Assembly (NCBI RefSeq): GCF_002775205.1
Contig: NC_036445.1
Location: 3,554,802-3,618,801 of the forward strand
Source: Xiphophorus maculatus
Taxonomy: Eukaryota; Chordata; Actinopteri; Cyprinodontiformes; Poeciliidae
Direction of reading: 5' to 3'
DNA: 64,000 bases
Shown here: one piece after another, positions 18,532 to 58,496 of the stretch
Layout: every line of letters starts with the position of its first letter
Position numbering within the stretch: the first letter of the stretch is position 1
Program-made: the position numbers and the translations under genes
The notes under the pieces: model-generated
Told to the model about the DNA's origin: nothing
Database searches by the model: none
The model's input: the letters and a program-made list of their open reading frames with translations, nothing else

Positions 18532-20053
18532 TACGGAGCCCTCTAGGGGACATGGGGATTTTTTTTTCTTTTGCGTTCCCTCGCAAAACTTTTGCGTTCC
18601 CTCGCAATACTTTTGCGTTACCTCGCAATACTTTTGCGTTACCTCGCAAACCTTTTGCGTTACCTCGCAAAACTTTTGCGTTACCTTGCAATACTTTTGC
18701 GTTCTCTCGCAAAACATTTTGCGTTACCTCGCAAAACTTTTGCGTTCCCTCGCAAAAGTTTTGCGTTACCTCGCAATACTGTACTGGTCAGTTATGCAGC
18801 ATAATTGAATACTGTACGCCTTTCCTACGGTGGGCGCCGTACTTTATGCTTTAATATAAGGTTATGTGAGGTATTTCCATGAATTTTAGTATCTTTTTGT
18901 GAAATATCTGAAGTTTTATATCTTTCCTTAGGATAGAAAGGCACCACAAACCTACGATATAAACAGAAACTTTCCGTAAGTAGGAAAGAAATAAAAACAC
19001 ATTATAATTTGGACTATTTCTGAGTTATTATCGCGGTTAATAAATCATCTGACAGTTTTGATTGTGTTTCTGTTGTGTTCGTAGTCTGAATGGTTTAAAG
19101 AGCTGCTTTCAGTGCCGCTCCATCTTAGCCTTAACAGACATAAACATGCAGTAATAAATCGATTTTCAATCAGTGTTTTGCACCAAGCAGTTTTTACTGT
19201 TAACAAGTTTTTATTATTAAAAACACGACAAACTAATGATGGTAAAGGGCCGCACTGGGTTAACTCGGGGAATCTCATCTGTCGGTGTATCAATCAACTC
19301 CAAACCTTTTCTTTGTTCTGTCACAATTATCGATTTATTCCATTTTGATGATTATGCTCCAAACTTTGCAAGGACTGACCGCCCCGCTCACCGCTTCTTA
19401 ATACACACAAAGCCAGTATCCTTCCCATTCATACCTGGTGACGTCACTCCCACGTCGACACACCTAAGTGTCAAAGCCGCTGCTCCTGTCATATCAATAA
19501 TTACTTATTTCATTCATATGGCTCTTACAGAGCCTCAGTGAAAACTTGTTTATTATTATTAACTGTTTGGTGCAAAACACTGATTGAAAATCGATTCATT
19601 TATTACTGCATGTTTATGTCTGTTAAGGCTAAGATGGAGCGGCACTGAAAGCAGCTCTTTAAACCATTCAGACTACGAACACAACAGAGACACAATCAAA
19701 ACTGTAAGATGATTTATTACCCGCGATAATAACTCAGAAATAGTCCAAATTATAATGTATTTTTATTTCCTTCCTACTTACGGAAGGTTTCTGTTTATAT
19801 CGTAGGTTTGTGGTGCCTTTCTAAAGAAAGATATAAAACTTCAGATATTTCACAAAAAGATATTAAAATTCATGGAAATACCTCACATAACCTTATATTA
19901 AAGCATAAAGTACGGCGCCCACCGTAAGAAAGGCTTACAGTATTCAGTTATGCTGCATAACTGACCAGTACAGTATTGCGAGGTAACGCAAAACTTTTGC
20001 GAGGGAACGCAAAAGAAAAAAAAAATTCCCCATGTCCCCTAGAGGGCTCTGTA
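18532..20053. mobile_element. Long-inverted-repeat (foldback) DNA element, about 1.5 kb
   Basis: The two arms (about 18532-19210 and 19540-20053) are inverted copies over several hundred bases. The ends read TACGGAGCCCTCTAGGGG and, on the other strand, TACAGAGCCCTCTAGGGG. CTTTGA directly flanks both sides (18526-18531 and 20054-20059), a probable target-site duplication. The arms differ by scattered substitutions and by expansion of a minisatellite in the left arm. No transposase is encoded. A single decayed arm of the same family lies at 44.93-45.33 kb. Confidence 0.88.
18569..18779. repeat. 21-bp palindromic minisatellite, about 10 copies
   Basis: The consensus is TTTTGCGTTACCTCGCAAAAC. 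Each unit is itself a hairpin: TTTTGCG pairs with CGCAAAA around a 6-base loop. One unit is 22 bp and others carry single changes. The opposite arm of the host element has only about two units, so the array expanded inside the element. Because 21 is a multiple of 3, it gives repetitive open frames in several registers; these are not genes. Confidence 0.95.
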
Positions 20054-24700: not shown

Positions 24701-27700
24701 CAGGACAGTATCGCTGCTTGGCAGAGAATGAGCATGGACGAACCAGCGCTTCCCTCAATATCACTGTGGAATGTGAGTGCCTCATTGTCCTGGATTATTC
24801 TCATTGACAAATTTATGGTAGTATATTTATAGAAATGGAATATCGTAATGGCGATTGTAGAAACTTTTAATTGTCTATATCTTTTCATCTATCCTACAGT
24901 GATTAGAAGGTGACTTTATTGACAACATGTCGATAGTGTTTAAATATTTTACAGGCATGTTCTGTTTATCAACTCCTATATCTGTTTGTCCTTTTTTAAC
25001 AGATGCCCCTGTGTTTCTGGAGGAGTCAAAGTGCACAGTAGTGAGGGAGGGCGTCCAGTGTGTTTGTGTGGCTGTGGGAAACCCTGAACCCACGATTGAG
25101 TTTTACCTCCCTGATCTCAACATCACCATCAACGAAACCGACGGTCGGTTCAACTTCTATACTCACACGGACGGTCACACATCCACTGCGATGATCAAAC
25201 TACGGGAGAAAGGTGAGCGGGCCGACAACAACGGGCCGGCCGTGAACGTCCACTGCAGCATGTACAACATCTACGGGAGGGAGAGCGTCCTTTTGGAGCT
25301 CCAACAAGAAAGTGAGTTCAAAGAGTTTATCTTTGCTTTGACTGTTTTCATGTCCTTTCCTTTTTCCAACACAGTTTCAAGAATTTGATTTTAAACATGA
25401 AATATGATTTTTTTTTTTTTTACAGCAGAACCAGATGGTTAACGCGTTTTAAGCAATTAAAACTAAAACCTGTTTATTTTAACAGGGAGGAGTAGAGAAA
25501 ATAATTTGTATATTTTAGCAAAAAACACTTTCAGTGAGCTGCCTTCCACTTATATAAGTGATAGATTTCTAATATAGTTTCATCTTGTTTAGAGCCTGAG
25601 ATTATGTGTTTGAAGAAATGATAGATGTCAGACTTTTTCTAGGAGATACGACTTTTTGTCATTAACACTCCACACCCCCTTTTGACAAAGTTCCTGTTTG
25701 TCTAAGGTTGACTGTGGGGTACAAGGTTCTTATGACAACAGGCACACCTTGGGAATGCTAAAGGAGATATGATCTTAGGATTGCAGATGGTTTTTGAGTA
25801 ATAACTGAAACCAGATGTTGCAGGCGTTTGTATTTTCTGTAATGTATAAATAGGGATGATATGCATAATTCTTTGGAGATTCCTTCTACAACTTGACTCT
25901 CAGATTCTCCCCAAAAGAAATTTTCCCTTTAATGCTCTCACATTGGTATAAAGTTGATGGAAAAAAAAATAAAATCACAATGCAACCCTTTTCATATCTG
26001 CTATCCTACAGCTGGCCATTTCCTTAACAGTTACCTTTTTGGAGTGTTTGTACAATCACCCAGGTTAGTACCTCATTTGTCTGGTATTTTGATTGTTGCA
26101 TGACATGAGCACAGCAAAAACATACATTGCAGTGCACAATATGTCCTATCCAACCTAGTGAAAGTTTTAAGATGGCTTTAATGATTCTAAAAATCTACCA
26201 TAGTTATTCAGATCTGAGCGCCGGATTTGTATCGATTTCTTGGATTACTTTAAAAGTCTGCTGATGTTGGCCCTTCATTACAACAGGCTCAGAGACTGTA
26301 ATTAATCACACACACTCTGTTCTGCTCCAGTAAATTAAATCTGTATTGATCTACAACAAAAATAAATCCCAAATAAAGCACTATTTCTCCTGCTTCAGTA
26401 ACATAACATCTACTGTTTTTAGGATGTGATACATCCCAATATACCCAAATCTATTGTATTCCAATAACCTTCCTCCTGGGAGTTTTCTAAATGCCTACAC
26501 GGACTCATTCATACCTGAGGATAATTTACAGAGACCAGTTGACCAAGCAGTTATGTTTTTGGACTGTGAGAGGGAGCCAGAGAATCTGCAGAGAAGACAA
26601 CGAGAACATGGGAACTGGATGCAGAAAGCGCCCAGGCTACAATTTGAGCCCTGGACTTTCTGGCTGCAAAGCAACAGTGCAACTAACTGTGCAGTCTGGT
26701 TTCAAGCTATGGGTATGTTAAGGAAGTCAGAACATGACCATCACTGACTCTGATGAAGCATCGAGCCTGGGCCAGTGAATCAAAAGAAAAAATGTCAAAG
26801 ACTGTGCACATTTTTTAAATGAAAATTACATGAGATTGAGTCAAAAATGAGAAAATAGAAGAATCTGTGCTGAGACAGTGATGACCACAAGGGACAAAAT
26901 AGGAGGAAAACAGAGTGGAGACATTGTTCCTGATATGTGGTGATATTATTAGGGCTGAGCTTGTTGGCCCTTTACATTTAGTTTAAAACTGGATTATACC
27001 TCCTTTTAGCTCAGATAACATAGCAACTTTTTATTTTTCAATAAAGAAGTGATTTATGCAAGCCTTCCATCACTTGCAGAAGTACTCTAACAATAAAAGA
27101 CCGTAAATGAACAGTAGCTTTTTGAGAAGGTTTTCAACATGTTGATTGTAAACACAAAGACATTTCCAGATTCAATGTTTAGGAAGTTCACTATGTCTAA
27201 AAGAGAAGTAGGAACAGATCATTCCAACTTATTTGCATTATTATTTTCACACTGAAAAGCAAAGAACTAAATGACCTTTTTGACTGACTAATCGGGTTAC
27301 ATTTGCTAAAGTAAAGCTTTTATGAGAAATATAGTTTGTACAATATTTGTGCATTTACTGTAGCGTGTCTACATTATGATCACTGGTTGAACACCTTTTC
27401 TACAGTTGAGTCAAAATATATCCATACCCCATTGCAGATTTAGTATTCAACAAACTTATTGGTTTAATAAAAAAAATAGTCTTAAATATTCAAAATAGTC
27501 CAGGGGTATGGATAATTTTGGGCTTAACATTATCTGTGCAATATTTGTGCAAATGTTACTGTCAGTTTACAGTCCATCACCTTTGTGTTTTTAGAAAAGT
27601 ACATGATGGCAGTTATAGTTGGCACCATTGGAGGAGTTGCAGTCATTGCCTTCATTATTGCAGCAGTGAGATATGTGGGCCAGAATAACAAGAAGTGAGT

Positions 27701-29141
27701 ATAAACAACAAACTAATGGAGAAGACAATGTTAGACGGAAGTCTTTGTTTTGCTTTCTAAGAATTTTATGAGATCCTTGGAAACACTTAAGCCTAGTCAT
27801 CCATTCTAAAACACACGTATGCAGATTGTATTTGAGTGAATGTGGGATTGATGTGGACGTGAGAATCTTCTGTCTAAAGCAATTTCAGTTTATTTGCTAC
27901 AACAAAACTGAGATGAAATCTTTGCAAATTCACACTGGCTGCCTTGTGGGGGTAGTAAGCAAGCTGGACTAACCTTATATTTTGCAGGCATGATTCTCTG
28001 CTCTGACATTGCTTCCGTATCCTTGACCTGCTGTTCTAAATACAACCCAGGTAGCCCTCTTAACCAAGGTGCTTTAATTTAGTCCCAAGGCCTCATTCGA
28101 TCCTCAAATTTGCAAGCTTTCTTCAGTAGAACAGCGATCTCAGCGACTAAACCCATCAAATAACCACGTCACTCACAGCCAAAGACGGCCTCCAGCATAA
28201 CCTTAAACAGCTTGTTTTAAAATGGATGCCCAGGCTTGGCGTGTCGCCCAGCTTTACTGGCAGTTGAGACCGAGTCTGATTATGTGACTCCGTCCCCCAG
28301 AGAGAATGGCAACCCTAGGCAGGACGTGGTCCTGGAGAACCCAGCTTTGTACTACAGCGCAGTCAAGAAGGACAAACAAAATCTGAGGAAGAAAGTGGTG
28401 AGACATAATGATGTCAATAATTCAGATTATAAATACGGAGGGGTTGAACGACCATTCTCAGAATGTTTGGGGTTAACATTTTGTGTAATGAAAATAGTAT
28501 GAGACCCCATTTTAAGCTCTGAAAAGAGATCATGAAGTAATCTCTCCCACTAGCAGTCTAATAACTCCAACAATGACCTTTCGAAACACTGTTTTTCTCC
28601 TGCTTTCATCGCTTCTCTGCGTTTTCTGTCTGTTTTTTCTCTCCCCTAACTCTTGCACAGCTTAAGACAGAGCTGTTGGGCTCAAAGTTTAACTCCATTC
28701 TAGAGGAGACTACGGTAAGGTTCCTAAACAAATCCCTATTAAAACACAAGCCACAGAGACAGATGCATCCCCTTGCATATCAGCTTCTCTTTTCTGTTCA
28801 CTTTAATTTGTTTCCGAAAAGGCCTTCTGCATGGCTTTCTCATTTGTAACACAAACCGCAAGATTAACACCAAACATCGCCAGTCCTATTGTCATTATGT
28901 CAAACCAGTAACTCCTAACTGATTTTTGTTCATGCCTTGGATCTTGATAGTTAGTGGTGGTGAATGCTCCTCCTGTCTGCAGGGAGAAGACGGGGATTAC
29001 CAACCTGTGGGCTCTGTGGCAGGACTGGAGAGGCAAGAGCTGAATTACGCTTCTCTGGAGTTTATTGGCGCCATGCCCAGGGAGGGGGCATCCGGGAGGG
29101 GAGATGACGGCAGCAACTACACAGAAATCAAAGCCAAATGA
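21785..29141 (+). CDS. mag: Myelin-associated glycoprotein (Siglec-4)
   Basis: Ten coding exons: 21785-21830 (signal peptide), 21935-22303 (V-set), 22384-22680, 22790-23047, 24512-24772, 25003-25311 (four C2-set), 27595-27694 (TM), 28301-28397, 28661-28714 and 28983-29141. The product is about 649 aa, close to mammalian L-MAG. The V domain has the MAG-type block HGIWYF, PPVVFKS, VVHESYKGR, LLGDLNQRNCTLL, and the sialic-acid-binding arginine falls at residue 118 (YYFRADV), the same number as in mammals. The TM helix spans about residues 517-541. The tail holds LNYASL (Y619, ITIM-like) and SNYTEIK (Y643), matching the YxEIRVK end of mammalian MAG. MAG is the periaxonal myelin lectin that binds gangliosides and Nogo receptors. 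The start of exon 8 (28301) was chosen because it is the acceptor that keeps frame; an alternative is possible. Confidence 0.95.
23048..24511 (+). other. mag intron 4, no element recognised
   Basis: AT-rich intron between the second and third C2 exons, ending in a long T tract and acceptor at 24511. I see no repeat, exon or RNA in it. Confidence 0.5.
25560..26012 (+). mobile_element. Possible solo-LTR-like sequence in mag intron 6
   Basis: The block contains a TATA-like tgtataaatagg near 25845, followed by a pyrimidine/CT-rich stretch and an A-rich poly(A)-signal-like region, the usual order in an LTR. Neither TG...CA ends nor a target-site duplication could be fixed, so this is tentative. 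Confidence 0.22.
26500..26705 (+). repeat. Degraded dispersed teleost repeat in mag intron 6
   Basis: Phrases such as gtgagagggagccagaga, tggatgcagaaagcgccc and ctggctgcaaagcaacagtg match the general form of a widespread fish interspersed repeat (enclosing 'gcaacagtgc...aac...gtgcag'). The two open frames across it are incidental. Confidence 0.55.
27404..27530. mobile_element. Tc1/mariner-like MITE, about 125 bp
   Basis: CAGTTGAGTCAAAA...ATCCATACCCC on the left is matched by the inverted ggggtatggataattttggg on the right. The inverted ends and small size fit a Tc1-like MITE. Flanking TA dinucleotides are compatible with this. Confidence 0.6.
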
Positions 29142-33939: not shown

Positions 33940-36900
33940 ATGTTTCTTCTTGCCTGGGCAATCATGTTTTTGTCAGGTAAAATATCCACTTTCAAATTTT
34001 CAACATCAAGTTTGAATTAAATTAAAATATGTTGTATTTCATTTTAGTTTACTGTGAAAGGGAAATTCACAATGAAATAATAACAAAGAAAGTACTTCTT
34101 TGCATATTTTTGAGATTCTAAATATGTGTCTTTTTGAAGTACATCATAAACAAACCAATGAAAGATAATATGTAATCTTTGGCTGACAGGTGCATTGGTT
34201 TCGGTGGAAGAGTACTGTCAGCAGGGCAACTACTGCATTACTCTTATCAAAGAAGTAACAGGAGAGGCTGGACTCTGTGTTGTGATACCATGTTCTTTCA
34301 ACACCGATATGAAATTTACACCTATACATATAGTTTGGTACAAATCCAAAGATGATAATAAGTCATGTGTATTTAACTCTGAAAACAATACAAATACTGA
34401 AGCTGGGTTTAAAGGAAGAGTGTCGCTGTTGGAGCCTGATGTGAGTCAGAGGAACTGTAGCATTGTGATCAATGATCTCACTGAGTCGGATTCTGGATAC
34501 TATCAGCTCAGAGTGAATGGGAATCTGAGTGGAAAACCTGATGGATTTTCATACAACAACAAAACTAAAGTTTCTGTCTCAGGTAGGACAATATTTTCCT
34601 TCTTTGGTGTATTATGACTTCAGCTCAAAGAATCTTCGAGAATTTCTGTGTAACTCAATAAAAAAAGGAGTTTTTGAAATGATTTCACCTGTGATCTGTG
34701 CTTTCATCAGCGCTGAAGCAGAAGCCCTCAGTGATGATTCCTTCACTGACTGAGGGACAGCAGGCCACTCTGACCTGCACTGCTCCTGGTCTCTGCTCTG
34801 GATCTCCTCCTAACATCACTTGGATGTGGAGAGGAAAAGGAGAGAATGACTCTTACATCACAGGAAACATGACTGCTTTAAATCCTGAGAATCTGACCGA
34901 TGTAAGACTGAGACACAGTTCAAATTTGACATTTATCCCTACAGCTGGACACCACAACACCAAACTCAGCTGCAAGGTCAGCTTCACTGCTAGCATAACT
35001 GTGCAGGAGGAAACTCTGAATGTGACCTGTGAGTACTAAAATATAAATAGCATGGCACTGTGCTGAATTTAGTTGCAAGGAAATCAATGCAACAAAGTTA
35101 CCTGGTCTGCAGTTGAAAGCAGAAATTGTGTTTAAAATTTGCCCTATTTGGACTTTTTATGTCTCACAATTTCTCTGTGCTCCACAGATGCAAGAAAACC
35201 TCAGATCTCAGGTAGAACAAGCGTGAAGGAGGGACATGATCTTAATCTGACCTGCAGTGTTGACAGCTTCCCTCCTTCAGAAATCAAGTTTTCAAGAAAA
35301 TTAAATGGAAATGTCCCGCAGGAAGTAAATACCTCTTATTATATCACCAATGCAATCAGAGAAGATGCTGGGCTTTACATTTGTACAGCAAAACACCTGA
35401 ATAGCACTCTGACAGAAGAAATTAATGTTACAATAACTTGTAAGTATAATCCGTCATTCAAGCATCCTTTATAACAGTAGTTTGTTTCAATAGTGACAAA
35501 ACAAGAACTCGTTTTTCCTCCTTTTTTCCACATTTTTACCAACAAAGGATACTAACAGCAGGTGATGTTTTGAATTCATTCGTATAACTGAGAATGCAAT
35601 TTTTTTTTTTATTTACAGGGTTTTCGGGGATCCTAAACACTTCTGGATGTGTGCTCAAGTCGGAGCTGCTGACCTGTGTGTGTATAAGTGAGGGGTTCCC
35701 TCTACCCACCATAAATTGGTCAATGCCTTTGGACCACACTGAGGACTCTGTCACAGTGTCAGGTCAAGCTGTCCGCAGCACTGTTAAACAAACTGTCAAA
35801 AGCCATGAAAACATCAGCATTAAATGTTTCAGCAGCAATGAAAATGGAGAAACAGAGAAAAACCTCACAATTCAAAACCTACCAGGTAAATGAAGCCAAG
35901 CTTTAACAGGTGACACCTATGTGCAACTTTTAATCATTTATATGCATGAGAGGGTAGATTACATGAGTTTTCAGGGGTTTATTTCACGTTAGCCACTTTT
36001 TGTACTCTAGTATGACATTTCTGTTACTGCCACCTACTGGGCAGCGTGTGTAAGTTCACAAATATTTGCTTCTACTTGAGCAGAAAAGCAAAAATACATC
36101 GGGGAAATCTTGCCTGTGCAGTTTTTATTTTAGAAACACCTACAATTAAAAAAAAAATGTTGTTAGCATATAATACAGATATAAATAAATCTATCTGATT
36201 ATTTTTGTCAACGTTTGGATGCCAAGACTGTATTTAGTGGAGCTGATGGGACTCAATGAATGATTGCAGCAGATGTGTTCCTGGGAGAGTCGCCTGAGCA
36301 GAAACTTACGATAGAGAGAACTGTAATACTAATTTTTATTTTTCAAGATTTTCTCATTTTTTTATTTGGGAAACAAGTGGACCAGAACTAACTGTTCTGT
36401 CAACGACTATATGTTGAACCTGTGCTTATATGTAAGGATGGATTGCAGACACCTGTGCCTTTTCCCAGCTTATCAAATTGTGCAGTCATAGAAGAGACTG
36501 CCTTGCAAGGTGGTTTACTCATGACAGTTGCAGTATTAGGCTATAACTCCAATTTTTGTTCTAACTAAAATAGTATGTTAATATTGTAATATGTTTGCAA
36601 ATTATTTCAAGTATGTGTCTTATTTTATTTTATTTTACTTTAAGCACAAGACATACACATCAACAGAAAGGCAGGTGGAGCTAACATATACGTCAAATGA
36701 AAATGGTGCAAAGTTACAGAACTAAGATTGGTATTATGTTAGATACTGTGCCCGTATGAGAATGCAAAGAGGGGCATAGATATGACAGCATCTTATAGAG
36801 AACAAGATAAAAAGTCAGAAACAAGTTAATCAGTCCAGCAAAATTATTTTAGAAAATTTTCAAATCTATGGCAACCTAACAAAATTTTAGTTTTCCCTCA

Positions 36901-38312
36901 AAGTTACATTATTAATGCGCAACATGCTATTTTAAAACCAATAGCATGCTGTCCCCCTGTGTGGAAAGGTGAAAAATACATTTAAAAAGTTTTTTTTCAT
37001 GCCAAAAGATAACTGAAAACAGGTATTTCATGGAGTGGTTATATGTAAACCATAAGTATGTATATTTTTTTCACATTATTAAAAAAGAATAACTTTGTCT
37101 GAAGATCTTTGTATGGGCGAACGTGATAACTACACTTTATCTTAATTTTGTTTTGTCTTTTTCTCTGGCGATCAGATGAGTCTTCAACAACAGTTCCCTG
37201 GCTGGAAATCCTCATTGTTGCTTTAATTGGAGGATTTATTTTTATCCTTCTTTCTATTATTGCCATAACATATTACAGGTATATTAGCTCTGTTTATTGA
37301 TCTTGTTAGCATGCAAAGTCAGCATAAACATATTAAGCTTTTGATGAGTGAATATATTTTTTCACAGAAAAAAACTAAAGAAGTCTGGAAATTTGGTTGA
37401 AACTCTTGAAACGATCTCTCCAGATGATCCACAGGTAAGCTGCTTTTAAAATGTGAAATGTTGTTAGGAGTTATTTTGCCAAAGAAAATTTGAGTGAGGT
37501 CTATTGATAAATAAATATTTTTAATAGATTTTTATGGATTTGTCTGGGTTAAAACTGTTAATCTCCAGCAGTAAATCATAACACATATTAAATTTACAAA
37601 AAATATATGTCCATTTAAAGGCCTCTGACAGCATATAAGGAGAATTGTGGATTTTCATACTGAGAGTTGTCAAAGTGCAGGTTAAAAAAACTTAACCTGC
37701 ACTTAATCTGAGTCATATATAAGAAATGACTCAGGCATATAAGGAAGAAAAATTGCAAAAGCTGCAGCATGTCTGATTTCAAAGGCAGCACAGTTGCATT
37801 TCAAACAGACACTCAAATCTTACTTTGAATGAGAATTCCTCCATGTCATTAGTTATTAAACACAGATGAACATTTTTAACACCCTCCAAAATCTTACATA
37901 TAAAATACATAAAAGAGTAGGATAAAAAGAAGCTGTATTCCTCATTTCTAATGTTCTTTGCAGGTCGATCCTTGACAAATGATATATGGCAGAATAGCTG
38001 GCAGAGACTGAAAATTCACAAATTACTATCTGATTAGAGAAAACGTTTCTTGTTTCAGCAATTATGTGATGCCATTCTTTTTTTTGCATCTTTCAGTCTT
38101 GTGGTGGTCAATCAGTGAACAATGCTCAGTTTGAAGTCCAACATGGAGCAATGAATGGAGCCGGGACCCTTGAACTCAACCGTATATCGAACGACTTGAC
38201 GTATGCCGCCATTGATCTCTCCAAGCTTAACATGCGTCTCGAAAAGGAAGAAAACCCCAACAAGAATGAGACGGAGTATGCAGAAATTCAGAGACAAACA
38301 AAATCATGCTGA
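33940..38312 (+). CDS. Siglec-like/CD22-like receptor A with inhibitory-type tail
   Basis: Eight coding exons: 33940-33976 (signal), 34190-34582 (V-set), 34711-35028, 35188-35439, 35619-35885 (three C2-set), 37176-37278 (TM), 37368-37434 and 38097-38312, giving about 550 aa. All Ig exons are phase 1-1. The V domain has the Siglec pattern: B-strand VIPCSF, E-strand NCSIVIND for an intrasheet disulfide, an extra N-terminal Cys that can pair with APGLC of domain 2, and F-strand YYQLRV with the arginine at residue 120, as expected for sialic-acid binding. The TM (IVALIGGFIFILLSIIAI) has no basic residue. The tail has LTYAAI (Y515, a consensus ITIM) and TEYAEI (Y540, ITSM-like), so inhibitory signalling through SH2 phosphatases is inferred. 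A B-cell CD22-type role is likely but unproven. Confidence 0.9.
35886..37175 (+). other. Intron of siglec-like gene A, no element recognised
   Basis: About 1.3 kb, AT-rich, between the last C2 exon and the TM exon. No missing Ig exon was found in it. Confidence 0.45.
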
Positions 38313-38517: not shown

Positions 38518-40592
38518 ATTTGTTTACTAAAGGGATGTAAAAAGACATTTTTATAAAAGCAATTTATACACAATTTAGCAATTAAAGAATCACTTAAATG
38601 TGTCAGAATTTATTAGAAGATATATATCATTTATTACTTTTGTAAGCCATTTATTAAGGACAAATTGTATTTGTTTTAAAAAATTAAGGTGAGATTGTTG
38701 ATTTTGTGCACATCAAATGTACAAACAATAATGTTTTATAATTGTGTTCTGTAATGTAGCAATGCAATTCTGACTGACCAACATTTGTTTGTAGTTATTT
38801 TTGCTTTATTAAAACTTTGTATTACCATTTTGTATCAAATTCAATTAATTATTTAATGATTTTTGGATGTGGTATAAAGATGGTCAATAAGCTCCTTTAA
38901 AATTATGCATGATGCAAGCCTGTGTTTATGTGTACAATATATGAACATCATCAATACATGTAAAAGTGGATGAGGTTTTAAGAAAAAAGATGCAAGATGC
39001 TTGTTAAGCAGGCATTTAGAACGAAACACTTGCATAGCTTGTAGTAACAGTCAGCAGAGGGCAGCCTACCACTAACATACAAGTCTGCATTAAAACCTTT
39101 GGCACTCTTCAAACATGTTTGAGACTGATGTGCACAAAGCAATGGACAGTCAAAAGATTTTATATATTTACAGTTTCAGTTTAGCTGCTAAAATAAAGTG
39201 AATGATTTGGCTTTTAAATAAAGCAGCTGCTGGGTTGTTCAGTCATTTTTCATGTTGGTGTGGCTTGTCTTGGTTTCCACGGTGAGGTGAAGCTTTGATC
39301 AGTGAATAGCGACTGGATGCATTGCTCATTCCATCTGTTTCTAACACTGAGACACTATTGAGATGATCTGATGAAAATAAAACTGTAAGATACAGTGTAC
39401 ATGTAATATTTGTCACTCTGATCTGGGTCTCAACTTTACGACAGAAAAAAAAATCAACAAAATCCAAATGTGTAAGTGAACTGTCATAAATTCAGCTGGG
39501 AAGAATTTGAATACAATTTTTAAATAGTTGACATGCAATTATTACTTCATCGTTCTTAGAGTCTTTGAAGCATTAACTGCAACATAGAAAACAATGCAGA
39601 AACAGAATGCATGTCACCATTAGCTCTAAATTATTAAAATAGGAAATCAATGTTGACACACTATACAATGCATAGGAATGGCTACATGATGGAACTTATT
39701 ATGGCTAAAATGTATAAGAGCTCAACTATCAACAAAATGCTTGTTGAATCCCCCACCATACCACTCCACATGTGAACTGGAGTTAGTGAATTTTTAAGTG
39801 TATGAAGTTGTTCCAAAGAGGTCTCTCTAACAAACAAGAGAAAAATATTTCCTTATGAACAGTCTTCATGAGGAAAAAATATGCACTTCTTAGATTAACT
39901 TTTGTTCACGATAATGGTTTACGAATTTTGAAGATGATGATGTCCCAGTTAGCCTTAAACACATACAATTGGTCCTTTTAGTTATTAAAAATCAGTTTCA
40001 TTATTAAAAATATATGCTAATATATTTTTAGATATATAGATGCTAAAGACTACTGCATTAGCACATACAGTAGTGTTAATTATACTTTTAACTAGTGTAA
40101 AGATCAGATCTTAATTTAGCTGCCTGCCAGAAAGAGCCACTAGAGGCCTCCGTAACCTCATGATAAAATGTCTCAATACTACTCCAGTGAACATTGCAGG
40201 TTGGTAAAGAAAACTACATTAGCACATAGTGTTAATTATATCAAATCAAAAATCAAATCAAATTTTATTTGTATAGCACATTTCAGCAGCAAGGCATTTC
40301 AAAGTGCTTTACATCGTATCACAAAGTCATCTAGTGGGGGGTTCTTGTTTTTGCATCCATAAAAGGTTTACTGGTTACACTCCTACTGTGTTATATGGAA
40401 CAAAATGCCTGCCAGAAAGTGCCACTCCCCTTGGTGGAATGTCTCAATGGTATAGCTGAGGAAAAAAAGCCACATCCTGTATTGCTATATTTTGGCATCT
40501 CAAGACTGAACTTTCCACTGAATCCATTTCTGCATTTTAAATGTTCATGCTGCACTGAAGGAGCAGGAGAGTAATCACTGAGGAATCAAACC
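38518..40592. other. Spacer between siglec-like genes A and B
   Basis: AT-rich, with one short fish repeat fragment at 40232-40318. The sequence just before the ATG of gene B (about 40.48-40.59 kb) may be its 5'UTR; no TATA box or other promoter element was identified. Confidence 0.4.
40232..40318. repeat. Fish dispersed-repeat fragment
   Basis: Contains aaatcaaattttatttgtat followed by agcacatttcagcagcaag and caaagtgctttacatc, a very common teleost repeat end. Only this terminal piece is present. Confidence 0.65.
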
Positions 40593-42862
40593 ATGTTTAC
40601 TGTCTTCTGGACGACATTGTTTTTCTTTTGGTGGGTTTCCACCACATATAAAGGTATCAGGAGTATTTTCTTTTTTATTATGATGTAGTGCTTAAAGCAA
40701 TTTTTATGTGACAATATTTTACTTTGATATTAAATCAATTTGTTTTGCTGATAAATGTAATCACAAAATGTTTGTTTAACCCTGTCAAGTTTTTAAAAAA
40801 CTTGTAAATCCTGAAACATTTACACACTTTGTTTCTGTACTAATAAAAATGATTGGTTAGATGAAAGCATCCTCAGTTTGCAAAGGTTTTGTAGTAGATG
40901 TTACAGTTATAACAAACACAAATATATAACTGCTTTGGTCTTTTCCTTCACACTAACAGTTGAATCAGCCCTTGGAAGACCGTCCTGTTACAATGGATTC
41001 TGCATCACTCTCAATGAGGAAATGATAACAGCCAAAGCTGGACTGTGTGTTGTGATACCATGTTCCTTCACCACTGCTGATGGATTTACACCAAAAAGTA
41101 TTGTCTGGCTTAAATGTGAACCACAGAAAAGGAGATGTAGTGACATTGACATAATATTTCACATAAATCGTTACAAGGTTCCATCAGAATTTCTAGGACG
41201 GGTTTTACTGTTGGATCCTGATGTGAGTCAGGGGAACTGCAGCATCATGATCAATGACCTCACAACATCTGATTCTGGATCATATCAGCTCAGAGTTAAT
41301 GGTTTTTACCATGGAACGGCAGATGGAGTTACGTTCCCTTCTAGAACAATTCTCTCTGTCAAAGGTATGAAAGGCAATAATAAGAACATCTATGGTTCTT
41401 CAATTCAGTGATTTGTAAAAATATACAACATGTTTCAAGTCTTTTTATATTACAGCGTCTAAAAAAACTTACCAGAATCTGTCAGTGTTTGTTGACCTCT
41501 GTTGGCAGATTGTAGTAACTGCATCAGCACCAAAACAAATCCACTCCTATTGATCAATGAAAATATCTTTACAGCTAAGCTAAAATTAGCTTGTTCCATT
41601 TAAATGTAAAATAAATAATAATATCTCCACTTGCTTTTATTTATCAACCATGTTATCATCAGATCTAAACCTGAGGCCCTCACTGATGATTCCTCCACTG
41701 ACTGAGGGACAGCAGGCCACTCTGACCTGCACTGCTCCTGGTCTCTGCTCTGGGTCTCCTCCTAACATCACCTGGATGTGGAGAGGAAAAATAGAAGAGG
41801 ACTATATCATCACAGGAAGCACGACTGCTTTAAAAACTCAGGATCTGACTGCTGTCACACAGAGACACAGCTCAACTCTGACCTTTAAACCTTCAGCTAA
41901 GCATCACAACACCAATGTAACCTGTAAAGTCAGCTTCACTGGAGACATAACGACAGAAGAGACAGTTTCTCTGAACGTAAGCTGTAAGTATGATCTGTAT
42001 CTTAGTGGGTTTCAATGTTTTTTTTTTTCAATTCTATAAATATGAAGTGTAAAACATTTATGCCACAGCTATGAGATATTTTACAAACATATGCTTACAG
42101 TGTTGGCAAAAATCCTGAAAGGCTCTGGATGTGTGCAACATGCAGAGGTCTTAAGCTGTGTATGCATCAGTGAGGGGTTTCCTTCACCCACCATCACATG
42201 GCCGCTACTAAAGAACCACACTGAGTACTCTGTCATCAACATTGTGTCAAACAACACTGTCAACAGCATCCTATCTCTTAGAAACCCTGGCAACATCAGT
42301 GTTGAATGTTTTAGCAGCAATGAAAATTGGGAAGTCAAAGAAAACCTCAGGGTGTATCGAGAGCTGTCAGAAGAAGGTACAACTTCCTTTGGCATGTTTA
42401 TTTCCTCTTTTTCCGCCATGTTCATTTAGATCAGAAACAGTGTGCTTTATGTATAATCAACTTTTTAAGCTTCCTTAAATCAAAAGTATCCAAACGCTTT
42501 ATTCAAACTCTGCTCCACAGAAACTCCAATTCACATGTATTTCTGTATTTTTACAGCTTATCACGAGAAACATTGTGTTTCTGGCTTTGGAGCTCTTCCC
42601 TGGGTCATTGCTGGTGTTTCACTCAGTGTACATGTTTTCTGTATGATCTACATTTGGCACCTTTGGTAAGATACATGATGTTTATTTCATGCTTTTCAGG
42701 CCAAATTAAGGTATATGGGCTGTATAGTTGAAATAACGTGTTTCTTTTCTTCAAAGGAACACAAGAAAAAAAACAAACCTCACTGAAGATCAAACTTATA
42801 TGTCTCTGCGAAAACGTGATACATCAGCAGAGTATGATGTTATTGTCCAAAGACCACAGTAA
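40593..42862 (+). CDS. Siglec-like receptor B with ITAM-like cytoplasmic tail
   Basis: Six coding exons: 40593-40653 (signal), 40960-41364 (V-set), 41663-41983 and 42101-42376 (C2-set), 42557-42665 (TM) and 42757-42862 (tail), giving about 425 aa. The V domain keeps [14 protein letters not shown] and YQLRV (arginine about residue 132). The first C2 opens [18 protein letters not shown] and is close to that of genes A, C and D. The second C2 ([15 protein letters not shown]) matches the last C2 of gene A. The TM has no Lys or Arg, only a His. The 34-residue tail has [19 protein letters not shown], which fits D/ExxYxxL-x8-YxxI, an ITAM. An activating receptor is inferred, unlike neighbour A. Identity as a Siglec is well supported; the signalling direction is inference from motif spacing. 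Confidence 0.88.
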
Positions 42863-43122: not shown

Positions 43123-43128
43123 AATAAA
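43123..43128 (+). other. Poly(A) signal of gene B
   Basis: AATAAA 261 bases after the stop. The paralogous 3' flank of gene D lacks this signal because the sequence corresponding to about 43107-43807 is absent there. Confidence 0.5.
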
Positions 43129-45335: not shown

Positions 45336-45758
45336 AACCTCAGACCTGCAGAAAGGTAATGAGACAGAGAACTATATATGTTGCCATCAGGAATCCCAGT
45401 CCAGTTTGATTACCTGCTGTTGCTGCTGAACAGGCATGAGCCAACTCAATGAACAGCAGAAGACTCCCCACTCTACTTTGCAATAATCCTTTATTTAAAG
45501 TGGAGTGGACATCTTTGCAGTTGTGTGCTTATAAATAGTAAATGACCTGTAGTCCAGATGGTCCTAAAGTGCTCCACACTATATTCACTCACTCATCCAT
45601 CGATAAATACATTGTAGTCACAGCTTCCCTGGGGCAGTCTGACAAAAGTGGAGCTGCTCTACATGTGGCCCATTTGATAAGTCACATTGTGCTTCTAGGC
45701 CCAATTATTCTATGTAGGTTGTATATTTGCAATAACAATGGTTTTCTTTTCTTCAAAG

Positions 45759-45815
45759 AAACACACACACACAGAAAAAGCAAAGCCCACTGAGAACGAT
45801 CAAACTTACATGTTT
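45759..45815 (+). pseudogene. Relic siglec-like tail exon in the B-C spacer
   Basis: The acceptor context tttcttttcttcaaag and the following bases align to the tail exon of genes B and D. The coding phase is broken by an ACAC expansion and substitutions, though gatcaaacttacatgt is still readable. It is a leftover of a lost receptor gene. Confidence 0.7.
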
Positions 45816-45843
45816 CCTAAAATATTAATTAATTTATTTATAC

Positions 45844-46046
45844 CAGAGGTGTCCAAAGTCGGTTCTCGAGGGCCGACATCTTGCATGTTTTAATTCTCTC
45901 CCTGGTTTAACGCACCTGGATCAAATGACGGCTCATTAAAGGCCTAAGAAGAACATTGACATGCTGAGAAGGTTGTTACTACCACCAGGGAGAGAACTAA
46001 AACATGCAGGATGCTGGCCCTCGAAGATCGACTTTGGGCACCCCTG
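45844..46046. mobile_element. hAT-type MITE, 203 bp, with empty paralogous site
   Basis: Ends CAGAGGTGTCCAAAGTCGG and CGACTTTGGGCACCCCTG are inverted repeats. A perfect 8-bp duplication ATTTATAC flanks it (45836-45843 and 46047-46054). The paralogous sequence near 58.13-58.15 kb lacks it, so it inserted after the 14-kb duplication. Confidence 0.95.
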
Positions 46047-46636: not shown

Positions 46637-49124
<2,488 letters not shown>

Positions 49125-49837: not shown

Positions 49838-51480
49838 TGTTACCCTTTTTTGCTTTCCAAAAAAAAGAAGTAAATTCATACCTAGAAAAGAAAAACCTGA
49901 TTACCCTTGAATATACCAAATTACATTTTAGTTTACATATAATATATGTGCTTCAGTAGTCAGCATTTATTAGTTATGTTTTTCATTTTTACCACATAAA
50001 TTGAGGAAGTAAAGATAAAAGGAGATGGATGAGACGAGCTAATACACACTCATATATCAGAAATAAGATCTAGACTGACTGCAACATGAATATTAGAGTA
50101 GAATAAAAAAAACTTTAATGTCTCTTGACTTGGTAGCAGCAGCAAAGTAACATGCGAGTTAAAGCATCTAGGTTCAAAATAAAAAAAACATTCAAAAAGA
50201 GAATAAGAATAACTAACTGTGCAAAAAGAGCAAACTTACAGCATAAAGTTACACTGTATAATTTTCAAAAACAGTATAATCAGATTCAAAGAAATGTCCA
50301 ATTGTGTAGAAAAATAAAAATATAAAATGTTAATGTACATTTCTGCATAAAAAATAACATACTATTTACTAAAAAAAACTATAACGGCAGGGATATAGAT
50401 GCCTTTAGAATATAAAGACAGTTATAAATTCTAACAGATGCTCGGAGGAAGTACAAATATGGTAATGCTCTTTTGTACACCAACGATGCATCAGTCACTG
50501 AATGAAGTCTATAGTTCTGCAACAGTTTCCTGCCTGGAGACGTTATTCTTGATGGTATTTTATTATTAGCAGTAATATATACCAGTACATATATCCATAT
50601 ATGGCAGCCTGCAGCTCTGACCATCTTTAAACACTTCAGCCACTTGTCTTAAAATAGTTACTGAGATCTTGAGATAAAATCTGTTAGACACTAAACTGGT
50701 CTTTCTTAAGAGCCTATGAAACCACTTCCTCTCAGCTCCTGATGAGCAACACACTACAGAAGACAGTGGATGCCATCATCGAGTAAAAAATGTTTTTAAT
50801 ACACAAAAATGTTAGAAATTTTTCTTCCATAATTACTAAAAAACAATGTATGTCCCTAAATTTAGTTTACATACTTTTTCCTAAGGGGGGCAGCATTGTG
50901 AAAGATTGCTGTGTCAACATGGGATTGTCAGATGAAACCTACAGGAAGTTGATGCTGTCGCCCTCTCTACCTCAAACCTGCAGAAAGGTGGGGGGGAGCT
51001 GTTGGTAATATATGTATGAATGTAACCCTTTCTTTAACCAGGTGTGTCTCATTGAGATTAAAAATGTCTTTTTCAAGAGAGATCCGGCCAAGACTAAGAT
51101 CTACAACTATGGTGATATCAGAAAACTTACTCTGGCTTCTTTACCTGCAGCTGCTCCTGAACAACCATGAGGCAACATAGTGAGCAGTAGAGGACTCAGC
51201 ACTCTACTTTGCAATGATCCTTTACTGAAAGTGGGGTCAGCATCATTGTAGTTGGGTGTCTATGGCAATTAGGAAGTGGCCTGTAAATGAAATTATTCCA
51301 AAGTGTTTAGCATTATAATCATCCATTCAGCCATTCAGATGCACATTCATATTGATTGTGGTAAGATACATTGTAGACACAGCTTCTACAAGACAGTCTG
51401 ATAGAAGTGACACTGCCATGAGACAGACTGAGTGGGGGATCTACCACAGGACGAACTACTGTATATAGGCTGTACATTTG
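49838..51480. other. Spacer between genes C and D with old repeats
   Basis: A stretch at about 50105-50755 may be a heavily decayed LINE 3' portion on the minus strand, but no diagnostic reverse transcriptase motif is left. At about 51020-51115 lies a fish dispersed repeat (tttaaccaggtgtgtctcat followed by tctttttcaagagagatc). The rest is AT-rich and unassigned. Confidence 0.4.
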
Positions 51481-51503
51481 CAATGGTTTTCCTTTCTTCG
51501 AAG

Positions 51504-51562
51504 GAACACAAGAAATAAAATAAGAAACTAGTGAAGAAGATCAAACTCATATGTCTCTGCAA
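51504..51562 (+). pseudogene. Relic siglec-like tail exon in the C-D spacer
   Basis: The acceptor-like ttcctttcttcgaag and gaacacaagaaat align to the tail exon of genes B and D. The frame is broken by stops, yet gatcaaactcatatgtctct remains readable. It marks another lost receptor gene. Confidence 0.7.
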
Positions 51563-52424
51563 ATTTGGATTCATCTGTTTTTGCTCTAAATAAGAAGTTA
51601 AATGAAATGGTAGGCTTAAATGCAATAATGGCTGCAATTTAAAAGCATAAAAAATATTGTTGTCAAAGTTTTCCATGTTCATAATCATAGAAATAATGCA
51701 AAACAACCTCTTAGTAAATGATTTATGATGATGAAATAATGAAAAAATATACAAACACATGCATTATCACAACTTATTAAATTTATAGTTTATAAAGCCT
51801 GAGTCTCACTCATTGGTTGAGCAGCTTTTTTTTCATAAAAGTGCTCACAAACCAACTTCCCAATTCTTAATGCAGCAAAAAAGGAAGAAATATGAAAGAG
51901 AAAAGAAGAAGGCGGTTTAGACGCCTGTGAAGAAAGTCACTGAAGACGAGTGGAAAGGTGGACAAAAAAAGAGGTGAATAAAACTTTTATTTACACAATA
52001 CTTTAGCTCTCAGATTGATGAACAAAATAATTCAATGTCTACGTGTGTGTGTAAGTTGGGGTGGGAGAGTTAAAGAGAAAAATCAGTGCTTTCTTGCTGA
52101 ACAAGGTTACAAATGAATTGTAATGCCACAGAGGTGTGCAGTATATAAATTCTCCTGATGATTACAAATTTTAATTATTCATAGTTCCATTTTATTTGTC
52201 TTTACTGAAAAGTTGTAAAGTCATAATTAGGTAGCAAAACATTATGTAAAACATTCATAAAGTGCAGTTATATATACTGAAATAAAATCCAATACAGAAA
52301 TGTTGCATTGAATGTGTGATGTTATGTCTGAACTTTGCTTCAGTTTCAGTATTTGTCTGAAACTCCTGGATAAAAGTCTTTTCCCTGTTTGGAATGATCT
52401 GAATGTTTCAAGCTTCAAATCAGG

Positions 52425-55400
52425 ATGTTTGTTTTCATCTGGTTAATCGTGTCTCTCCCTACTGGCAACGGTAATGTATGAATCGTCTAATTCATGAACA
52501 TGAATCAATACTAAAATTAAATACACTATATGTATATGTATCCACATTTGCTTGTAACAATATTTATGGCAAATCTCTAAAGTTTATATATTTGTTTTAC
52601 AAATTTGCAAATGAATAAAGTTTTTCTGTTATGTGGAGAAACTTAAGGAAAAATTAATGGTTAGTGTTTAAACATCTTATAAATAATATCTGGTTTATAT
52701 AAACATTTACTGACAAGAAACTTTAGTCAGGATGAAACTGTCATTACTTTGGCATTGTTTCATTTCATTGAAATAATTTTTGAACAAATCCTGAGTTTAC
52801 TTGTTTTTCTTATTAACAGGTGCATTACAATGGAAAATCCCCTGTCAACAGGAAGGTTATTGTGTTTCTTTCAATGAGGATGAAATAAGAGCAGAAGCTG
52901 GACTCTGTGCTGTGATACCATGCTCTTTCACATCTTTCTTTGTACCCGAACATATTATTTGGTATAAATGTGAAAAACTTGAGGACAATTGTGCCAAATC
53001 TGTCCCTGTATTTCACTCTGACAAGAACGAGGAAAACATTCAACCTGGGTTCAAAGGTCGTGTGTCACTGCTGCACCTGAACATGACTGAGAAGAACTGC
53101 AGCATGGTGATCAATGATCTTCAGAAATCTGATTCTGGATCATATCAGCTCCGAGTTGTGGGAAAAGAAACAGGAGAAGCATTTGCATATCTTGCAAAAA
53201 CAAAACTCTCATTAGTAGGTAGGAAACATTCCAGTATACAATTCCCACATCAGATTACTAGACTTAATGAAGAAAATTAATAATTTTATCTTTATATTTT
53301 TAGAGAAGATTGTTGAAGCTTTATTGTTGACAAAATAAAGGAAATATTTAGTCAATCTGTCTTGTCAAGCTCACACTGTTTACCATTTTTGTGATGATTA
53401 ATTTGATGAACTGTTTCCATCAGATCTGAACCAAAAGCCCTCAGTGATGATTCCTCCACTGACTGAGGGACAGCAGGCCTCTCTGACCTGCACTGCTCCT
53501 GGTCTCTGCTCTGGGTCTCCTCCTAAAATCACCTGGATGTGGAGAGGAGAAGGAGAGAATGATTCTTACATCATAGGAAACATTACTGCTTTAAAAACAG
53601 AGAATCTGACTGCTTTCACAAAGAGACATGTCTCAACTCTGACCTTTAACGCATCAACTGATCACCACAACACCAGTATAACCTGCAAAGTCAGCTTCAC
53701 AGGCGACATAAATATAAATGAGACTGTGACTCTGAATGTGACATGTGAGTACCTCATTGTCTTACAAATCCTGCTGATGATGTTTTAATTACAATTTATG
53801 AACATTTGCTCATAAAATACCCCTCTTTTAAAACTGGCTTTATTTTATTGTAATACATTATTTTTATTTCATTGATGTGAAGTAAATTTTGATAACAGAG
53901 AATACTGTGGTGAAGTCAGGAGACTTTCATTGTGACCAGGAGTATTAACATTTTCCCTCCAGCATTATGAAATGGTTCAAATTTAACCAGAGATGACTTA
54001 ATAGAAGAAAAAATGTGCAGTTTTTACCATGCTAACGTGACAGCAAATAATTCTGGACTTTACATTTGTACAGAACAATATCTGAATAACACTCTAAGAA
54101 AAACAATCAAAATAACAATGGCATGTCGGCTGAGATTTTTCAAAAGCAAAACAAGAAGAAATATATTTATTTAGATAAATACATCCACAACAAATTACAA
54201 TCTAAAATACTTTCTTGATTTATTAATTGGTATATAAATTGGCCAGTAACAAGAGTATGTTCTTTGTGTGTCTGCTTTACTGAAAATTTAAATATTTTGT
54301 TTATATTTGCTCTGCAGATGCAAGAAAACCTCAGATCTCTGGTAGATCAAAAGTTAAAGAAGGAAATTAACTGAATCTGAACTGCAGTGTGGACAGTTTC
54401 CCTCCATCAGTTATCACATGGACTAAATCTAGAAAACAAGCCGAACAGCAGAGTCACAATGTATCTAAAAATTGTGGCAGCAGTAAAATCTGTCAGCGAC
54501 AAAAAAGAAGTTGCTTGTTTTCCGTCACTAATGTGACAACAGAAGATGCTGGTCTTTATATCTGCACAGCAAAACATCTGAACAACACTCAGAGAGAAAC
54601 AATTACTGTAACAGTGACATGTGTGTTTAATACATTTTGAAGAAATATTTCTCAAACTATTAGATGCAATTATCTAAGCTTGAGCTTCATATGGAGTTCA
54701 TAACAAAAGTGTTTAAACCTTTTGTTTATACTGTGTTCCACAGATGCAAGAAAACCTCAGATCTCTGGCAGGACAACCGTCATGGAGGGAGACAATCTGA
54801 ATCTGACCTGCAGTGTTGACAGTGTTCCTCCATCAGTCATCACATGGACTAAATCTAGAAAACAAGCCGAACAGCAGAGTTACAATGTATCTAAAAATTG
54901 TGGCAGCAGTAAAATCTGTCAGCGACAAAAAAGAAGTTGCTTGTTTTCCGTCACTAATGTGACAACAGAAGATGCTGGTCTTTATATCTGCACAGCAAAA
55001 CATCTGAACAACACTCAGAGAGAAACAATTACTGTAACAGTGACATGTGTGTTTAATACATTTTGAAGAAATATTTCTCAAACTATTAGATGCAATTATC
55101 TAAGCTTGAGCTTCATATGGAGTTCATAACAAAAGTGTTTAAACCTTTTGTTTATACTGTGTTCCACAGATGCAAGAAAACCTCAGATCTCTGGCAGGAC
55201 AACCGTCATGGAGGGAGACAATCTGAATCTGACCTGCAGTGTTGACAGTGTTCCTCCATCAGTCATCACATGGACTAAATCTAGAAAACAAGCCGAACAG
55301 CAGAGTCACAATGTATCTAAAAATTGTGGCAGCAGTAAAATCTGTCAGCGACAAAAAAGAAGTTGCTTGTTTTCCGTCACTAATGTGACAACAGAAGATG

Positions 55401-56654
55401 CTGGTCTTTATATCTGCACATCAAAACATCTGAACAACACTCAGAGAGAAAAAATTACTGTAACAGTGACATGTGTGTTTAATACATTTTGAAGAAATAT
55501 TTCTCAAACTATTACATGCAATTATCTAAGCTTGAGCTTCATATGGAGTTCATAACAAAAGTGTTTAAACCTTTTGTTTAAACTGTGTTCCACAGATGCA
55601 AGAAAACCTCAGATCTCTGGCAGGACAACCGTCATGGAGGGAGACAATCTGAATCTGACCTGCAGTGTTGACAGTGTTCCTCCATCAGTTATCAAGTGGA
55701 CTAAATCTGGAATAGAAATCAAATGGCAGGACAACATTTTAAGCAAAGCAGAAAGCAGAAAAGTCTACCTGCTGGAAAAAAGTGGATGTGTCTCTTTTTC
55801 CTTCATGAATGTAACATCAGAAGAAGCTGGACGTTACATTTGTACAGCAACGTATCAGAATGAAAGCATGACAGAAGAAGTCCATGTTAAAGTGACTTGT
55901 AAGTATATTTTCATAGTTAATTTGCAGAAGGTATATAATTATTTGGGCTTCTAAGTCAGGATTATTTCGTGTTAGGTTTTGTAATTTCTTCAGAATACTT
56001 AGCACTTGTGTATGTTATCAAATATCTGTTTTAAAATGCCTTATTTTAAATATCTGACAATACACCTTAGAAAATAGAACAAAAGCTACAGAGGGAGGCT
56101 GTGATCTTGAGCTGGAAAAGGGTAGATTGCCTTTTTCAGAGCAGGGATGAGGTCCTGCTTCAAGTGGAAGCATTAAGCGTTTCATAGTCTTATTCACTAT
56201 TGAAGGGAAAATGGAGCGGGACATTGATAGGCAGATTGGTGCTGCATCTGCAGTGATGCTAGTGCCTTATCAGTCAGTTTTGGTGAAGAGAGGCCCAAGT
56301 TAAAAGGTGAAGAAACCCCAATTCACATGTATTTCTGTAATTTTACAGCTTATCATGAGAAACATTGTGTTTCTGGCTTTGGAGCTCTTCCCTGGGTCAT
56401 TGCTGGTGTTTCACTCAGTGTACATGTTTTCTGTATGATCTACATTTGGCACCTTTGGTAAGATACATGATGTTTATTTCATGCTTTTCAGGCCAAATTA
56501 AGGCATATGGGCTGTACAGTTGAAATAACGTGTTTCTTTTCTTCAAAGGAACACAAGAAAAAAAACAAACCTCACTGAAGATCAAACTTATTTGTCTCTG
56601 CAAAAACGTGATACATCAGCAGAGTATGATGTTATTGTCCAAAGACCACAGTAA
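52425..56654 (+). CDS. Siglec-like receptor D, multi-Ig, ITAM-like tail, one nonsense exon
   Basis: Proposed coding exons: 52425-52470 (signal, MFVFIWLIVSLPTGN), 52820-53218 (V-set), 53424-53744 (C2), 54744-55046, 55170-55472 and 55596-55898 (three C2), 56349-56457 (TM) and 56549-56654 (tail), giving about 629 aa. A further C2 exon at 54318-54620 has an in-frame TAA and must be skipped; phase 1-1 exons allow this without a frameshift. The V domain keeps NCSMVIND and YQLRV. The tail has [19 protein letters not shown], a full ITAM pattern. The 5' half is nearly the same as gene C, while the TM, tail and 3' flank are nearly the same as gene B, so D is a chimera. If the nonsense exon is included, the product would be a truncated V+C2 protein, possibly secreted. 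Confidence 0.82.
53940..54127 (+). pseudogene. Degenerate half C2 exon in gene D
   Basis: Follows the C2 pattern from ttccctccagcattatg to the YICT region (aattctggactttacatttg) and a TMAC-like end. It lacks the 5' half, carries stops and has no acceptor at its start. It is a fossil Ig domain. Confidence 0.7.
54318..54620 (+). pseudogene. Nonsense-bearing C2 exon (unit 1 of the tandem set)
   Basis: The acceptor (tgctctgcag) and donor (acat|gtgtgt) are intact, and the exon has the same 303-base length as its neighbours. TAA at 54368-54370 is in frame where the other units read AAT. The Cys of strand B and the YIC of strand F are otherwise kept. Confidence 0.85.
54318..55595 (+). repeat. Three tandem 426-bp exon-intron units
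   Basis: Exon starts are 54318, 54744, 55170 and 55596, exactly 426 bases apart (303-base exon plus 123-base intron). Units 2 and 3 are nearly identical over the full length. Unit 1 matches them from about mid-exon onward. The fourth exon (55596) matches them only in its 5' part. Confidence 0.95.
56055..56312 (+). mobile_element. LINE reverse-transcriptase fragment
   Basis: One frame reads MERDIDRQIGAASAVM followed by VLVKR-like residues, a block I recognise from the C-terminal half of fish LINE reverse transcriptases (family not resolved). It lies exactly where gene D switches to gene-B-like sequence. Confidence 0.6.
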
Positions 56655-56935: not shown

Positions 56936-58056
56936 ATATATTTTAACATTTAAGCATCTTAGCTTTTAACAGTACTGGTTGTTTCAATAGAATAACAATA
57001 TTTTACATCTCACATAACAAACTGTACTTTGTTGTTATGCCCAAACATTTTGAGACCAAGAGCTACTTTTTCCCACACCAGCCGGCTGAGAGCTACCACG
57101 TGTCAAAATAGATTATAAATGAAACTCTATTGACTTATTTTATATAAGTTATAATAAGTTATAGCAGACATATTAAAGAGATAGAAAACCTAAATTCTGA
57201 CATTGGGAGAGGGTTGCTAGTTTGTCCTAGTCGGGCCAGCAGGATTCAGTGGTTGATTAGCTAATTTCAACACCTGATCTGCTAGTGACCTGTCAGAGAG
57301 TCGGCCTGTGGGTCGCCTATTTTTTGCTAATGGAACCAAAATTGGCACACAGAATCGATGCAACACCTTATTGAAACAATAATTACAGTGACTATTGTTT
57401 TTGTCGGATCACTTGGGACATTATTTTAATTCATTTAAACAAGTTTGTTGAGTTATTCTTCATGTCTTTTAAAAAAATTTAGGATCTTAGTGAATACTTT
57501 GATTTGCGTGTAAGAAGAGATCGTCTCAGCCTCCTGGTGGAGTTCAGTTTTTTGTTACCAGAAGACGATACTGCCGAGATCAACTCAAAACCTTCCTGAG
57601 ATCGACTAGTGAATCGTGACCGATGTATTGAGCACCCGTAACAGTAGCAATCATACTGCAATTATTGCTTACTGTAAAGTGTGCTGGCCTATTTTGCATA
57701 CAGCTACAAATGTCAATTTAAAATTTCAAATAAAGAGCGTCGGTGAAAATGCGTTTATTATTAACTCTTTGATACTACTTACTTAAAGTGGAGTGGACAT
57801 CTTTGCAGTTGTGTGCTTATAAATAGTAAATGACCTGTAGTCCAGATGGTCCTAAAGTGCTCCACACTACATTCACTCACTCATCCATTGATAAATACAT
57901 TGTAGCCACAGCTTCCCTGGGGCAGTCTGACAAAAGTGGAGCTGCTCTACATGTGGCCCATTTGATAAGTCACATTATGTTGATTTTGTGTTTCTAGCAC
58001 AATAATTCTATATAGGCTGTATATTGGCAATGACAATGGTTTTCTTTTCTTCAAAG

Positions 58057-58113
58057 AAACACACACACACAAAAACAGCAAAGCCCACTGAGAACGATCA
58101 AACTTACATGTTT
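58057..58113 (+). pseudogene. Relic siglec-like tail exon in the D-E spacer
   Basis: Paralogue of the relic at 45759-45815, with the same ACAC expansion after tttcttcaaag, so the decay predates the 14-kb duplication. Confidence 0.7.
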
Positions 58114-58496
58114 CCTAAAATATTCATTTATTTATTTATTTATACCTTAAATAAGAAGCTAAATGCAAATGGTAGACCACTAAGTTCAATCATGGCTGTG
58201 AATTAAATGCATAAAAACAAAGTTATGAAAGTTGCACATTGCCTTAGCCACAGAAAAAGTGCAAAGCAACAACATACTTACAAACCAACTTCCCCATTCT
58301 TAATGGTGCAGAAACAGGAAGAAATATAGAAAGAAGACAAGAATGCAGTTTCACCTTCAGTGAAGAGATTCACTGAAGACAAAACAGAGGTAAATAAATC
58401 TTTGATTAATGCAATGCAGTTTAGCCCACATCAGACTGATAAACAGTACTTTCTTGCTGAATGAAATGAAAGTAACAATATAATGATTATAAATAT

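Follow-up and report, generated by a model that had tools for sequence, protein, structure and literature searches.

Receptor B, encoded in a 64,000-nucleotide stretch of the Xiphophorus maculatus genome (C3:3554802-3618801, hereafter the window), is probably a single-chain activating Siglec and one half of an activating/inhibitory pair with gene G, which lies downstream of the window; receptors D and F may be a second pair. Coordinates above 64000 continue the numbering past the window end, and the genome searched comprised 704 Mb in 101 contigs. A MAG-like gene (21973-29138; tail motifs LNYASL and SNYTEI), which from its sequence we take to be MAG, heads a same-strand array of Siglec-like receptors. 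A, B, C, D and E lie within the window, all on the forward strand, and the next 50 kb hold F, G, I and J, interspersed with decayed copies. The last open stretch of the MAG-like gene (28923-29138) contains two ITIM-type motifs, in agreement with the ITIM known in fish MAG according to the available text of PMC7226832. Receptor A (putative extent 34190-38312, V domain from 34190) has a related ectodomain and a tail (38097-38312) with an ITIM-type LTYAAI and an ITSM, TEYAEI, their tyrosines 25 apart.

The spliced model of receptor B has six exons (40593-42862, forward strand) joined across GT-AG introns, encodes 425 amino acids and is intact at all splice sites. Exon 1 (40593-40653) supplies the ATG and signal peptide and ends at a GT donor in phase 1, exon 2 (40960-41364) encodes a V-set domain, exons 3 (41663-41983) and 4 (42101-42376) a first C2-set and a second C2-type domain, exon 5 (42557-42665) the transmembrane segment, and exon 6 (42757-42862) the whole cytoplasmic tail with the ITAM tyrosines Y405 and Y417 and the stop codon. 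Exon 6 is directly preceded by AG, ends in TAA and joins the transmembrane exon at phase 2, giving the 34-residue tail that the original prediction had placed there; translated from its first base the exon runs into stops, since the phase 2 intron sets the coding frame from the second base. The transmembrane segment spans 25 residues (367-391) and, as had also been predicted, contains neither Lys nor Arg. From sequence reading, a possible polyadenylation signal (AATAAA) lies at 43123-43128 on the forward strand.

The tail of receptor B reads, in order, Asp at Y-3, YMSL, exactly eight residues and YDVI, which is the complete ITAM first claimed for it. Scored as [DE]xxYxx[LI]x6-8Yxx[LI], the consensus form as printed in the available part of PMC2832619, the strict pattern has two matches in the six frames of the window, one in B and one in D (56580), and still just these two across 114 kb. 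The six-frame count alone is not decisive, because 60 first-order Markov sequences of window length gave a mean of 0.23 matches and a maximum of 2. Residue shuffles of the B tail yielded the pattern in only 12 of 200,000 cases, and with the tyrosine spacing also preserved in far older paralogues, the ITAM within this tail is not a product of chance. A motif scan found no fit to ITIM or ITSM at either tyrosine of the B tail and none in the tails of D, C/E, K (a Siglec-related gene on another contig) or its neighbour L; ITIM was scored here as [ILVS]xYxx[ILV], a looser form than the printed L/V, because the latter would drop several classical tails that end in Ile. The ITAM, the lack of a basic transmembrane residue and the lack of ITIM and ITSM support the predicted signalling of the receptor through its own ITAM. 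With the B tail alone as query, a PDB search returned chance-level matches only, and searching its peptide words in full-text literature gave only noise among the matches listed.

The ectodomain of receptor B is that of a Siglec, with predicted sialic-acid binding. The PDB relatives of the spliced protein are CD33 (2.2e-20), followed by Siglec-5, Siglec-8, CD22, MAG and Siglec-10, and among the best 60 of 78 matches the top twelve are all Siglecs. In the CD33 alignment, R132 of B falls on the Arg of the CD33 FFRM motif in the F-strand, which we take to be the sialic-acid-binding residue, and the cysteines of GLCVxxPC and NCS in the V domain and the extra Cys in the first C2 domain, presumably the Siglec cysteine pattern, are preserved. 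An Arg occupies the F-strand position in A, B, C, D, F, G and MAG, and a Lys in I, K and L. The available text of PMC7226832 names R120 as the sialic-acid Arg of CD22. Pfam gave V-set, several Ig models and Ig_CD22, the last above its cutoff, and the V domain as modelled by AlphaFold (mean pLDDT 82) had sialoadhesin with sialyllactose as its top fold match, with other V-set proteins (SIRP, CAR) scoring close behind. PDB ranking, Ig_CD22, fold match, Arg and cysteines agree with the original description of B as Siglec-like. No relative was found in viral contigs searched with a C2 domain of B.

Gene G is represented by an open 8-exon model (79780-84576) of 636 to 644 amino acids, depending on one donor. 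Its tail is of the ITIM/ITSM type and its V domain is identical to that of B at 127 of 134 positions, so that the two genes combine a near-identical ligand domain with opposite tail motifs, as paired receptors do. The similarity extends at the DNA level over a tract of ~1.35 kb (40434-41783, forward strand; ~97% identity, 1275 of 1316 aligned bases with 34 gap columns excluded) that runs from the upstream region through the leader and V exon into the start of the first C2 exon (C2a). Past this tract identity falls to 119/147 and then 84/128, and the second C2 exons are 75% identical over 263 columns by blastn; the global alignment beyond ~42060 is excluded from the identity figures on account of an additional exon in G. 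Synonymous divergence shows the same contrast, with dS of 0.011 in V as against 0.269 in C2a. The ~97% tract with the subsequent drop, together with the dS contrast, points to a recent exchange between the ITAM gene B and the ITIM gene G. Positive selection on the V domain was considered from dN/dS values of 2.4 (B-G) and 2.1 (D-F) and discounted, there being very few changes.

Receptor D (52425-56654) joins a C/F-type V and C2 and C2-like repeat exons to a B-type transmembrane segment and tail, and its tail exon (56549-56654) encodes a full ITAM. From the transmembrane exon through the tail it is 98% identical to B, which makes the ITAMs of B and D one event, recently copied. Its V domain matches that of F at 119 of 131 positions, and the DNA of the two genes is 95% identical over 3.5 kb. 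One repeat exon of D (54318-54620) holds a stop, so an intact reading frame requires this exon to be skipped. On that proviso, D and the ITIM gene F, itself a candidate model, may form a second activating/inhibitory pair. The region 54308-55885 consists of a 426-bp unit repeated four times head-to-tail with one C2-like exon per unit, the stop being in the first, and gene F has a longer run of exons related to these.

Four further tail exons of the ITAM type were identified, two of them in the array. Receptor C (46637-49124) has an intact reading frame and the tail QTYMCM-x8-YNVI, in which the ITAM is lost through a Met at Y1+3; the tail exon of receptor E (63112-63220) is identical to it and has the same Met. 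Both are older copies and both keep the tyrosine spacing. E is probably a dead gene, as the interval between its leader and remaining exons (61480-62660), which may hold an insertion, gave no match to V or C2a. The B-C comparison gives dN/dS of 0.57 for the tail and 1.48 for the transmembrane exon, over few sites, indicating modest rather than strong constraint. The YMCM of the C tail (49016-49124) is a YxxM motif, the PI3K p85-binding motif, and could bind that subunit. Three decayed B-type tail exons lie at 45740-45880, 51480-51640 and 58030-58180 and, added to those extant, indicate that the array once had at least seven.

The other two tails are those of K and L, two Siglec-related genes of contig C2 (L014 5712-7806 and L015 475-2184) with Lys substituted for the sialic-acid Arg; sialic-acid binding by the whole ITAM group is for this reason unsupported by K and L. 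Their tails read INTYMSLKKADVEEEYSVI and ADTYATLRKADMDEAYSTI, with the motifs YMSL-x8-YSVI and YATL-x8-YSTI, and their transmembrane exons have an ALPW motif and intron phases in common with B. A PDB search with the K ectodomain placed MAG first (1.6e-9). The C2a domain of K is identical to that of B at 35 of 98 positions, the L domain is about 29% identical to that of B over 116 columns, and dS in C2a reaches 2.7 for B-K and 1.8 for K-L, near saturation; dN/dS of the K-L tail is 0.31. A whole-genome search with the B tail recovered B, D, C, E and K only, among the matches listed at E-values up to 10, the K match having an E-value of 0.73, and L surfaced when the K tail was the query. Capture of the tail from an unrelated receptor is unsupported by this search, again among the matches listed.

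The two tyrosines are spaced by 12 in every ITAM-type tail exon, six in all with five distinct sequences (B, D, C, E, K and L). YxxL/I-x8-YxxL/I is present in four of the six, and only two, the recent copies B and D, match the strict consensus by having an acid at Y-3; K and L have no acid at Y-3 and a Glu at Y-4 instead. The original prediction had made its case depend on conservation of spacing across species; within this one genome the spacing stood across the paralogous exons, while the strict consensus did not. K and L rule out a spacing private to B and D, and in the predicted tails of these deep paralogues the ITAM spacing YxxL-x8-YxxI is retained despite near-saturated synonymous sites.

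This spacing bears on the possibility that the B tail is the usual Siglec pairing of ITIM and distal motif in a form whose spacer has shortened, and that it would inhibit through SHP phosphatases or as an inhibitory ITAM. Both tail types (B and A) have a TYxx(L/I) near the membrane and an EYxxI farther out, so the ITAM-type and classical motif pairs may be homologous, and a short-tailed tilapia CD22-like protein has been labelled ITSM-like in the accessible sections of PMC12837193. However, position -2 in B is Gln and Ala at the two tyrosines, and none of the six ITAM-type tail exons fits ITIM or ITSM. It is the six classical tails (MAG, A, F, G, I and J, the exon limits of F, I and J being putative) that fit, with an ITIM in five, an ITSM in five and at least one of them in all six, and their paired tyrosines are 24-27 apart as against the invariant 12 of the ITAM type. 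We therefore regard a shortened inhibitory tail as unlikely. A little less likely again is that the motifs are mainly endocytic and B a ligand-uptake receptor: YxxL/I also matches Yxx-hydrophobic, the general endocytic motif, but we know of no endocytic signal that requires a tyrosine pair exactly 12 apart, and this spacing is preserved across very old paralogues. Internalisation by ITAM-like tails is left open by the CEACAM authors in the available part of their paper (PMC2832619). Finally, that B is silent or its tail exon unused in a decaying array, to which the V-less E, the three decayed tail exons, the stop in one D exon and the immediate stop upon read-through of the intron after the B transmembrane exon (which makes a tail-less form of B possible) would lend themselves, is very improbable given that B is intact in each exon and splice site and that the B-C tail has diverged less (83/106 identical) than the intron (62/91) and 3' flank (162/269).

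As a single-chain activating receptor, B would bind a sialylated ligand through its V domain, and, following established ITAM biology, its clustering would lead a Src-family kinase to phosphorylate Y405 and Y417. The doubly phosphorylated YxxL-x8-YxxI would then recruit Syk or ZAP-70 through their tandem SH2 domains, with phagocytosis or some other activating outcome that does not involve DAP12. LYN, SYK and ZAP70 have been measured as fish genes (PMC7226832, available text), so parts of the ITAM pathway exist in fish. Gene G would have its V domain in common with B through recent sequence exchange and yet carry ITIM/ITSM motifs, and from their sequences B and G resemble an accelerator with its matching brake. 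More broadly, we lean slightly towards the view that single-chain Siglecs with an ITAM form an old lineage in fish, that this lineage has its own pair of transmembrane and tail exons on two chromosomes, and that it has repeatedly borrowed V exons from ITIM Siglecs and thereby produced DAP12-free activating/inhibitory pairs.

The closest functional parallel is CEACAM3/CEACAM1, in which, as in B/G, a single-chain ITAM-type receptor has a V domain near-identical to that of an ITIM/ITSM partner, and in CEACAM pairs the leader and N-domain exons have been homogenised by recombination or gene conversion (both from the available part of PMC2832619). The likeness to CEACAM3 had been proposed from the tail and transmembrane segment of B; it becomes better than first proposed because gene G, downstream of the window, carries ITIM/ITSM motifs and a B-like V domain. 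As described in the same part of the literature, CEACAM3 belongs to another IgSF family and has several cytoplasmic exons, whereas B has a Siglec ectodomain and its ITAM tail in one final exon. The Siglec-14/5 and Siglec-16/11 pairs resemble B/G in that each has a Siglec ectodomain in common with an inhibitory sister (PMC13233462, PMC2832619; available passages). Activating Siglecs signal via the adaptors DAP12 or DAP10 in the accessible text of PMC13233462 and PMC7226832; Siglecs 14, 15 and 16 couple to DAP12 through a basic transmembrane residue (PMC13233462, same passages), which B lacks, having its own ITAM instead. Teleost NILTs and the few NITRs with an ITAM are, like the B array, fish single-chain Ig receptors with ITAM or ITIM within one family, but their V-type domains are of another kind and not Siglec (PMC3022915, available sections). 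With NILTs and CEACAM3 as precedents, single-chain ITAM receptors are an already known kind. The original remark that no described Siglec with a built-in ITAM was known is in line with the open-licence literature, in which none was found among the matches listed and in the portions available.

If this reading is correct, the CEACAM3/CEACAM1 solution has been reached also in the main family of sialic-acid receptors, as a system of one chain where a change of tail is enough to turn sialic-acid recognition from brake into accelerator. According to the available text of PMC7226832, just four Siglecs (CD22, MAG, Siglec1 and Siglec15) occur regularly in fish and inhibitory CD33-related Siglecs are absent from them; no ITAM-bearing Siglec is described there. 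The ITIM and/or ITSM tails of receptors A, F, G, I and J bear on that stated absence; these genes are grouped here by tail motif, and their orthologues may lie among either the CD33-related Siglecs or CD22. The tilapia CD22-like protein may be a relative of B under another name. Nile tilapia On-CD22 is short like B (356 aa) and has one tyrosine motif, ITSM-like, ending 15 residues before the C-terminus; its overexpression raised basal NF-kB and STAT1 reporters and lowered IFN1 and IFN3 reporters (PMC12837193, accessible sections), and its kinship to B, compared by description only, is a guess. Outside the receptor genes, the interval 18737-20015 of the window contains long inverted repeats, 97% complementary, possibly belonging to a mobile element.
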